34,230 nucleotides of DNA from Alphaproteobacteria bacterium (GTDB taxonomy: Bacteria > Pseudomonadota > Alphaproteobacteria > UBA828): positions 1 through 34,230 of the forward strand of contig JAJDUK010000012.1 of the NCBI GenBank assembly GCA_022826665.1. Reading direction: 5' to 3'. Below, in pieces: positions 32,900-34,230 of this stretch. Below the pieces are notes generated by a model, which made no database searches, was not told the origin of the DNA, and saw only the letters and a list, made by a program, of their open reading frames with translations. The translations under genes and the position numbers were made by a program. How positions within the stretch are numbered: position 1 is the first letter of the stretch; every line of letters begins with the position of its first letter.

Positions 32900-33583
32900 G
32901 TGGCGGACAAGCCCCATTTTCACGGCCATCGCGAGCGACTGCGCAAGCGCTTCGACGAGGCCGGCGCCGATGCCCTGCCCGACTACGAGCTGCTGGAGCT
33001 GCTGCTCTGCCAGGCGCTGCCCCGGCGCGATGTCAAGCCGCTCGCCAAGCGGCTGATCGAGCGCTTCGGCACCATCGGCGGCGTGCTCGGCGCCGAGAAG
33101 GGGGCGTTGAAGGAGGTGGCAGGCGTCGGCGACGGGGTGGTCCACACGCTCAAACTGGTCGAGGCGCTCGGCGTGCGCACGCTGCGGGAGCCGATCATCG
33201 GCCGCCCGGTCATCGCCACCTGGCAGGCGGTGCTGGACTACTGCACCGCGCGGCTCGGCAAGGAAAAGACCGAGCATTTCCGCGTGCTCTTCCTCGACAA
33301 CCACAATGCGCTGATCGCCGACGAGGAGCAGCAGCACGGCACGGTCGACCATGTGGTGCTCTATCCGCGCGAGGTGATCAAGCGGGCGCTGGAGCACGGT
33401 GCGAGCGCCGTCGTGATGCACAACCACCCCTCGGGCAATCCCAGCCCGTCCCGCGCCGACATCGAGCTCACAAAGGAGGTCGCGAAGGCCGGCGCCACGC
33501 TCGGCGTAACCGTCCACGATCACCTGGTGATCGGCCGCTCCCGCCACGTCTCCTTCAAGGAGGCAGGCCTGCTGCCGGACTGA
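32900..33583 (+). CDS. radC: RadC family protein (JAMM/MPN+ domain)
   Basis: A 227-residue RadC protein. The N-terminal part has a helix-hairpin-helix region (LPDYELLELLLCQALPRRDVKPLAKRL shortened here to LPDYELLELLL and PRRDVKPLAKRL). The C-terminal JAMM domain carries the metal motif His174, His176 and Asp187 in HNHPSGNPSPSRAD. Despite its name, a repair role is not firmly shown; the JAMM motif suggests metallopeptidase or nuclease activity. The GTG start at 32900 follows map by 13 nt. A terminator lies at 33702. Confidence 0.95.
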   Translation: MADKPHFHGHRERLRKRFDEAGADALPDYELLELLLCQALPRRDVKPLAKRLIERFGTIGGVLGAEKGALKEVAGVGDGVVHTLKLVEALGVRTLREPIIGRPVIATWQAVLDYCTARLGKEKTEHFRVLFLDNHNALIADEEQQHGTVDHVVLYPREVIKRALEHGASAVVMHNHPSGNPSPSRADIELTKEVAKAGATLGVTVHDHLVIGRSRHVSFKEAGLLPD

Positions 33584-33701
33584 GGACGCGCGGCCCCCTG
33601 ATGGGAATTCTAGGCCAAGCGACGCGGAGGCACCGGCCCCAGGCCAGCTGCAGTGAGCGATCGTGCGTTCCGCGCATACGCGCGCGGCGCTGTCGCGCCG
33701 T

Positions 33702-33718
33702 CCGGGCCTGCGGCCCGG
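33702..33718 (+). terminator. Rho-independent-like terminator after radC
   Basis: CCGGGCC (33702-33708), loop TGC, GGCCCGG (33712-33718) form a perfect 7-bp GC stem followed by cctttctt. It lies 118 nt after the radC stop. The preceding stretch 33584-33701 shows no gene. The whole interval 33584-34065 holds only this terminator, the MITE-like element and the palindromic repeat. Confidence 0.6.
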
Positions 33719-33772
33719 CCTTTCTTGCCGGACGCTTCGTCCAAGGCCGCGCGCGGCGTGAGTCTCCACTAA

Positions 33773-33893
33773 CAGGCTGCTGAAAAACCCTTCGGACCCA
33801 ACCAATGATTCCCTTCTGTTCTAAATTCGATTCTCATTTGTTCCCGCGTTTTCTTAGAACAAGGTGAGAACATAGGAGTTTTTCAGCAGCCTG
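33773..33893. mobile_element. 121-bp MITE-like element with 16-bp terminal inverted repeats
   Basis: CAGGCTGCTGAAAAAC (33773-33788) is repeated perfectly in inverse at 33878-33893. Outside, CTAA on the left faces CTAG (reverse-complement sense) on the right, extending the match with one mismatch. The interior is AT-richer than its surroundings and has no coding capacity. The end sequence resembles inverted-repeat ends I associate with IS1182-like elements, from memory only. Two further inverted repeats lie inside (see findings). It is probably a non-autonomous element moved by a related transposase. Confidence 0.75.
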
Positions 33894-33899
33894 CTAGGG

Positions 33900-33976
33900 C
33901 GTCATGGCCGCGCTTGTTGCGGCCATCCACGTGGGTGCCGCGGAGAAAGATGCCCGGATCAAGTCCGGGCATGACG
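33900..33976. repeat. Alphaproteobacterial palindromic repeat ('MPGLDPGI' type)
   Basis: The unit is bounded by CGTCATG (33900-33906) and CATGACG (33970-33976) and contains two perfect hairpins: ATGGCCGC/GCGGCCAT and TGCCCGGA/TCCGGGCA. On the minus strand it reads MPGLDPGIFLRG...KRGHDA, a phrase found again and again in spurious ORFs of alphaproteobacterial genomes. It should therefore be an interspersed repeat, not a gene. It lies 6 nt from the MITE-like element. Confidence 0.7.
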
Positions 33977-34101
33977 AGTATGGGAATGGCCGCGCGGGGC
34001 TCGGACCCGGTAGCCCGCAACATGGTGCGGTGGAAGGCGCGGGCGGCGCGGGGCAGCATCGCGGGATGAGCCAACGAACAGCCCGCGAACACATCCCCGC
34101 C

Positions 34102-34230
34102 ATGCAAAACGAAACCCGACAGACCACGCCGGCGGCGGCGTTCAGCCGCTCCTCCATCAAGCGCCTGCCGCACAAACTGCGCGAGGCCGTCGATCAGGCC
34201 ATCGCGGACGGCGATACAATCGACCAGATC
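34102..34230 (+). CDS. Start of Mu gp27-like (DUF3486) phage protein, partial
   Basis: From ATG 34102 the frame is open to the window end (43 residues). An in-frame ATG at 34066 would add 12. After a loose start the sequence SSIKRLPHKLREAVDQAIADGDTIDQI matches the N-terminal helix region of DUF3486 (Mu gp27) proteins, small phage proteins of the late-gene region. Neither start has a clear ribosome site. The rest lies outside the window, so it cannot be said whether a full Mu-like prophage follows. Confidence 0.5.
   Translation, partial: MQNETRQTTPAAAFSRSSIKRLPHKLREAVDQAIADGDTIDQI

Follow-up and report, generated by a model that had tools for sequence, protein, structure and literature searches.

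The window, i.e. the whole 34,230-nucleotide stretch of alphaproteobacterial DNA under consideration, carries near its right end a radC gene (32900-33583; Pfam RadC) and, about 190 bp beyond it, a 121-bp element (33773-33893) flanked by CTAA on the left and CTAG on the right. Its termini are perfect 16-bp inverted repeats (33773-33788 and 33878-33893), lying within a 20-nt pair that is 95% complementary. These repeats had been described in an earlier note on this DNA and were recovered exactly, as were its four inner stem arms, TGTTCTAA (33817-33824) with TTAGAACA (33854-33861) and TTCTCATTTGTTC (33831-33843) with GAACAAGGTGAGAA (33857-33870), and the mutual exclusivity of the two stems, to both of which the GAACA bases are common. 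No ORF of at least 80 aa was found inside the element; minus-strand ORFs called mechanically only overlap its edges. The parts of the element are as follows:

33769-33772, no strand: left flank CTAA, a putative target-site copy, three of whose four bases equal the right flank CTAG
33773-33788, plus strand: left terminal inverted repeat (TIR) CAGGCTGCTGAAAAAC; the same 15-bp end is found on the ISs L018, L019 and L045
33805-33811, plus strand: first GANTC box, ATGATTC, with G 35 nt in from the left terminus; invariant in five of five copies
33807-33821, plus strand: repeat unit 1, GATTCCCTTCTGTTC, of an internal direct repeat
33817-33861, plus strand: stem 1, with arms 33817-33824 and 33854-33861; not conserved
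33829-33843, plus strand: repeat unit 2, GATTCTCATTTGTTC, with the second GANTC site, 22 bp after unit 1
33831-33870, plus strand: stem 2, with arms 33831-33843 and 33857-33870; not conserved
33857-33871, minus strand: repeat unit 3, inverted, imperfect and without GANTC, its likeness to units 1 and 2 judged by eye
33878-33893, minus strand: right TIR, a perfect 16-bp match to the left end
33894-33897, no strand: right flank CTAG, a putative target-site copy

Further repeats lie on either side of the element. Downstream of radC, about 48 bp (33671-33718) form a dispersed repeat with many copies among the matches listed from the own and same-genus genomes; a hairpin resembling a terminator (33702-33718) lies within it, and a weak match to the SorX RNA (21.6 bits, cut-off 46.6) overlaps it. 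Directly to the right of the element is another dispersed repeat (33900-33978), an imperfect palindrome in which 33900-33927 pairs with 33949-33976. The last stretch up to the contig end (34014-34230), which includes the start of a short open frame, is likewise repeated: own-genome copies among the matches listed are 98%, 89%, 83% and less identical, and it also occurs in same-genus genomes, with several copies near contig starts.

Within its own genome the element occurs once, and no second place with both ends was found there. Matches of any kind occur in nine of 385 genomes of the class, the own genome included, and are mostly to the ends alone. Two copies are present in the same-genus genome G005 (83% and 76% identical) and two in G307, from another alphaproteobacterial family, at 72% identity to the window copy; the second of these was found via the first (85% identity over 93 bases). 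A genome-wide pattern scan returned 19 loci, with terminal repeats only at L036 and L037, i.e. the two G005 copies, and a search of the plasmid collection for the element gave no match. The search for more copies that the earlier note had proposed was negative within the own genome and positive in G005 and G307. Most related copies and IS ends examined are flanked by YTAR, often CTAG, the latter standing on both sides of the G005 copy G005_81.

Complete ISs with the same ends, which the earlier note had proposed to look for, do exist. L018, in a same-family genome, has the same TIR, CTAG on both sides and a 378-aa transposase with DUF772 and DDE_Tnp_1 domains, which scores 254 bits against the IS5-family model NCBIfam NF033581 (cut-off 140), the IS1182 model remaining below its own cut-off. 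The transposases of L019 and L021 are likewise above the NF033581 cut-off, and L045 combines the same ends with a 61% identical transposase. The nearest such ISs named by annotation are ISAzs10 (Azospirillum sp. B510), ISPst12, ISDisp1 and ISAtc5. Like the element, these NF033581 ISs have terminal repeats of the form CAGGCTGCTGAAAAA and close variants with mostly YTAR flanks; unlike it, they are about 1.3-1.5 kb long and encode a transposase. In the own genome, a search for a partner transposase returned one partial match only (36%, E 1.7e-4), so the window copy looks stranded.

The element is short, without a transposase gene, and bounded by TIRs which it shares with autonomous ISs (L018 in the same-family genome and others), and outside its own genome it has several whole-length similar copies (two in G005, two in G307). 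With same-ended relatives in other genomes and complete ISs bearing its terminal repeats, the earlier description of it as MITE-like stands. The outcome named there as contrary, a single-copy sequence without related IS ends, was not encountered: it is single in its own genome, yet related IS ends are found elsewhere. One might still take it for an immobile sequence, either a chance inverted repeat or a decayed fragment, given the single copy, the non-identical flanks (CTAA versus CTAG) and the failure to find an empty site in the three readable same-genus genomes (L086, L087, L089), where the sequence downstream of radC differs; L085 and L088, whose stretches do not reach downstream of radC, were left out of this comparison. 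Against this stand the perfect 16-bp ends, the similarly ended relatives, which are 83%, 76% and 72% identical over practically their full length, and the complete ISs bearing the same ends. The related copies already refute immobility, which we regard as highly improbable. Rather, the MITE would have been moved in trans by an IS5-family (NF033581) transposase recognizing the CAGGCTGCTGAAAAA ends and inserting at CTAG/YTAR.

Beyond the TIR, the interior of the MITE has no significant similarity to the IS ends L017, L018, L019 and L064, nor has the MITE to the 147-149-bp MITEs of G065, G331 and G100. The same TIRs bound other MITEs of 147-172 bp, namely L020, L023 and L024 (G065), L047 (G331), L048 and L063 (G100) and L046 (G377); those of G065, G331 and G100 resemble one another, in a comparison that excluded G377, and in G100 one adjoins a complete IS5-type element. 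The same-genus genome G001 carries a lone IS-like left end (L017, from 1505), which has the TIR, a flank reading CTAG and, about 41 nt inward, GTGATTC; by eye, none of its listed ORFs is apparent as a transposase. The same-TIR MITEs of G065, G331, G100 and G377 have two or three GANTC sites each. Pairs of such sites 22 bp apart are found both in these and in the window family, which may be coincidence.

The earlier note had further suggested that the element, as RNA or single-stranded DNA, switches between its two inner hairpins. Both pairings are real and exclusive, and the competition of the stems is more than chance: 35 of 500 dinucleotide shuffles of the interior contain a perfect inverted repeat of 8 bp or longer, but just three of 500 have an 8-bp and a 6-bp repeat with a common arm. 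Folded as DNA, the 66-nt core (33810-33875) at least equals 185 of 200 shuffles (15 are as good; z -1.69), and parts of the GTTC/GAAC cores are invariant. Weighing against a switch, the 89-nt interior without TIRs as a whole folds no better than shuffles, 152 of 200 doing at least as well as RNA and 82 of 200 as DNA. The low whole-element z-scores (-5.7 as RNA, -5.2 and -5.3 as DNA) go with the terminal repeats. The relatives' whole-element RNA folds (z on the two strands -6.8 and -3.8 for G005_81, -1.4 and -2.3 for G005_26, -0.1 and -0.9 for G307_123) indicate that even the foldback of the whole element weakens once its ends decay.

Across the five copies, stem 1 keeps 8, 6, 4, 6 and 6 of its eight pairs and stem 2 keeps 13, 10, 11, 10 and 9 of 13, such that pairs are lost in the four other copies without compensation; two-sided changes amount to one cell of the alignment in stem 1 and none in stem 2. 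The covariation that had been proposed as a check was not found beyond column shuffles (443 of 500 reach the score for stem 1, 322 of 500 for stem 2), in a set whose five copies could let weak covariation go unnoticed. The earlier note had itself named loss of the inner pairings among copies as contrary evidence, and for the switch such copies exist. Sliding the stem partners lowers the pairing, as is expected when a structure comes from one row of the alignment. As for known RNA families, Rfam gave no match over 33773-33893, and over 33500-34230 only the sub-threshold SorX match (33656-33726).

What the copies do retain is the direct repeat: units 1 and 2 are 12/15 identical and 22 bp apart, a level reached in five of 500 shuffles, and it is kept at 10-12/15 in all five copies, whereas the inner pairings are not. 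The competition between the hairpins arises from a single 15-bp motif (GATTC...GTTC), present twice in direct and once in inverted orientation, parts of unit 3 being able to pair with either unit 1 or unit 2; this internal repeat accounts for the pairing. From the lost pairings we infer that the competing hairpins are a passive by-product of the repeat. A conserved RNA or single-stranded DNA switch is not supported, within the limits of five copies, and a functional alternation between the hairpins appears most unlikely. The window element is thus an ordinary MITE of a known IS type, and it is the class-associated GANTC box in its IS relatives that is worth following.

The invariant ATGATTC of the five copies is by itself only suggestive, an equal or longer run appearing in 1150 of 20000 column permutations; the second GANTC site, in unit 2, is kept in four of the five. 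GATTC, the core of the motif, fits GANTC, the sequence on which CcrM, a methyltransferase of Alphaproteobacteria, acts (PMC4287350); for this reason, the ISs with the same ends were inspected for the box. The transposase-side end was placed by script from the TIR and YTAR, the box not being used; a host was counted as alphaproteobacterial if of the same class (genomes with G handles) or so named (plasmid records). Ends were kept at a TIR score of at least 13 and a transposase identity of at least 45%. This dropped 22 rows (L068, L070, L071, L072, L077-L080, L113, L115, L120, L127, L137, L138, L140, L142-L144, L146, L148, L159, L178), among which L068, L072 and L078-L080 have the box, L077 has none and the left end of the others was not located. 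L082 gave no match, L111 and L116 come without upstream sequence, L105 and L133 are one genome, and L163 and L164 are near-copies.

A GANTC site 39-45 nt from the transposase-side end is present in all 38 alphaproteobacterial left ends and in none of the 17 others; under a stricter TIR score, the counts are 35/35 and 0/13. The rate in mononucleotide shuffles of the IS ends is 0.04 box per end. At the right ends, GANTC is found in three of 29 alphaproteobacterial cases, as GAATC, and in none of 14 others. The left-end boxes read TGATTC in 37 of 38 and TGAATC in the remaining one (L081), a departure at N that keeps GANTC; the base before TGATTC is a purine in 37 of 38, and T stands two bases after the box in 36 of 38. 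Among the 36 ends matched by the start pattern (38 examined), the box precedes the start codon by 31-42 nt in 33; the other three distances (12, 14 and 21) appear to stem from false start matches, and the pattern had no match in two ends. The box is absent from a non-alphaproteobacterial relative with an approximately 60% identical transposase (L105/L133), and three non-alphaproteobacterial copies (L106, L107, L108) have, by eye, an A/T-rich, -10-like sequence at about its position. GATC, a short and common motif, occurs in bases 26-60 of nine of the 38 alphaproteobacterial left ends; some of the non-alphaproteobacterial ends have it at 20-60, none at 37-45. The dropped L077 (G269), the one alphaproteobacterial end of this kind without the box, is AT-rich at that locus and its TIR assignment doubtful; G269 is also without a GcrA match. 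In the MITE, the G of the first box is 33-35 nt from the left end in five of five copies, 4-10 nt nearer the end than in the ISs. It is likely that this box (33805-33811) is the counterpart of the IS left-end box.

The association extends to distant relatives. With ends taken from a TIR-like motif and not from paired terminal repeats, the IS1182-type elements (28-35% identical) show the box in 15 of 15 alphaproteobacterial and none of four other cases; further IS1182-type plasmid copies have it in two of two and none of five, respectively, the end of L192 (Bacillota) not being located by the pattern. In a subgroup with CTGACAAA ends, the alphaproteobacterial L125, L162, L190 and L191 have GATTC 33 nt on, as does L076 by the script's distance. 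The Vibrionaceae copies L188 and L189 have instead GATC 33 nt from CTGACAAA, i.e. at the offset of the alphaproteobacterial GATTC, and so do the non-alphaproteobacterial L128 (counted by eye) and L254 from a viral contig. These GATC copies are one lineage. Vibrionaceae carry Dam. Neither motif is present in the non-alphaproteobacterial L126, nor, by eye, in L192. Only two of 61 viral contigs with a CTGACAAA end have any transposase match, one with a placed left end (L254), and a further search found no relative. Ten viral-contig relatives were found, of which eight were examined and seven left ends located: four with GATTC, one with GATC (L259) and two with neither. In L259 (upstream of 1501), the transposase is 68% identical to that of ISAzs10, and TGATCC replaces the box to give GATC.

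In a tree of 65 transposases, the box is present in 45 of 45 alphaproteobacterial rows and none of 20 others, and box and host class switch together: at least three times on supported branches and four times on the best tree. The tree left out L077, L083, L129, L131, L137, L138, L149 and L178 by name, as well as matches of less than 200 residues (L079, L080 and L147, each of which has the box); L077 and L083 are alphaproteobacterial loci without a box at that place, L083 being 25% identical with its ends not determined. The independent host contrasts on supported branches agree in three of three cases, too few for significance (sign test p 0.25). Since the main-group alphaproteobacterial ISs form one clade (support 96/91), shared ancestry explains much of the 38/38, and the main-group box may be a single inheritance; ancestry alone is disfavored in that most other leader positions vary.

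A candidate reader of the box is GcrA, which in Caulobacter is credited with activation at methylated sites reading TGATTCG or YGAKTCK, though the same paper did not confirm such activation for Brevundimonas (PMC7987155). In the IS ends, the base directly after the box (A 22, C 7, T 5, G 4) is mostly not the G/T of YGAKTCK. A match to GcrA (PF07750) was obtained in 28 of 40 alphaproteobacterial genomes (27 above the cut-off), including that of the window, and in none of 12 others, and a control search also matched an archaeon, such that single weak matches mean little. PF07750 was not found in 12 of the 40, nine of which carry the box (G054, G087, G100, G306, G795, G811, G820, G827, G829). GcrA therefore cannot be required in general.

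That DNA methylation places transposition under cell-cycle control is textbook knowledge for Dam and IS10/IS50. By analogy, the IS box is predicted to be a CcrM site overlapping the transposase promoter, which would couple transposase transcription to methylation and tie expression to the passage of the replication fork through the box; the MITE would have inherited or acquired such a box. As the gene-less MITE needs no promoter, its box would either descend from an IS end or have some use in cis. For the ISs, published work is consistent with a promoter role: the position of GANTC relative to the start goes with cell-cycle timing (PMC4287350), and in Caulobacter GANTC mutation cripples four of five tested promoters (PMC3667746).

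The box might instead be a site for the transposase or a host protein, or an alphaproteobacterial promoter element, that contains GANTC by accident, methylation being uninvolved. This would suit the near-constant T at N (37/38) and the preferred flanking bases, which are more than a bare GANTC needs, the persistence of the box in gene-less MITEs, the single clade of the main-group ISs and the several hosts in which GcrA was not found. However, a transposase site is needed at both ends, and most ISs have the box at one only (3/29 right ends). Further, an accidental GANTC sits poorly with the absence of the box from the approximately 60%-identical L105/L133, with the sole departure at N (L081) keeping GANTC, and with the GATC at the same offset in the Vibrionaceae copies of the distant group. 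We consider this account a substantial possibility, falling somewhat short of an even chance.

As a single explanation, a MITE with by-product hairpins and a CcrM box that is tied to transposase transcription seems to us fairly probable. A broader generalization is more tentative: this transposase superfamily would carry the adenine-methylation motif of its host at a fixed position before the transposase gene, namely GANTC (CcrM) for Alphaproteobacteria and GATC (Dam) for Vibrionaceae, the other non-alphaproteobacterial hosts examined having neither at that place. We offer it as a substantial possibility, with somewhat less confidence than doubt. If true, replication-coupled transposition would have been re-tuned to the host methyltransferase several times (at least three box changes on supported branches), and CcrM sites would be carried around alphaproteobacterial genomes by gene-less MITEs such as that of the window.

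Among known repeats, the closest in kind are the CIR elements of Caulobacter and Brucella, which are intergenic, carry GANTC and measure about 110 bp (Chen and Shapiro 2003, cited from the review PMC2229807). They resemble the window MITE in being small alphaproteobacterial intergenic elements with a conserved GANTC (in the MITE, the first site in 5/5 copies). In the review's account, however, they have two arms and no TIRs, whereas the MITE has 16-bp TIRs and a known type of IS partner; these TIRs set it apart from the CIR elements. In the portions of open-licence literature covered by a limited search, no report of GANTC/CcrM control of an IS or MITE was found; control of gammaproteobacterial IS4/IS5 elements by orphan methyltransferases is suggested in passing in one paper (PMC9296519). 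The precedents for the proposed mechanism are IS10/IS50, where a Dam site over the -10 raises transposase transcription on hemimethylated DNA, GATC likewise being given as overlapping the -10 of the Tn10/Tn5 transposase genes (PMC5390034), and IS6110, where a MamA site overlaps the inverted repeat and the presumed transposase promoter (PMC3701705). Like these, the ISs described here have an adenine-methylation motif of the host shortly before the transposase gene; unlike them, the motif is GANTC, the hosts are Alphaproteobacteria, the elements are of the IS5/IS1182 type and the effect of methylation is a predicted one. If right, this would tie the activity of mobile elements across Alphaproteobacteria to CcrM in a simple and testable manner.
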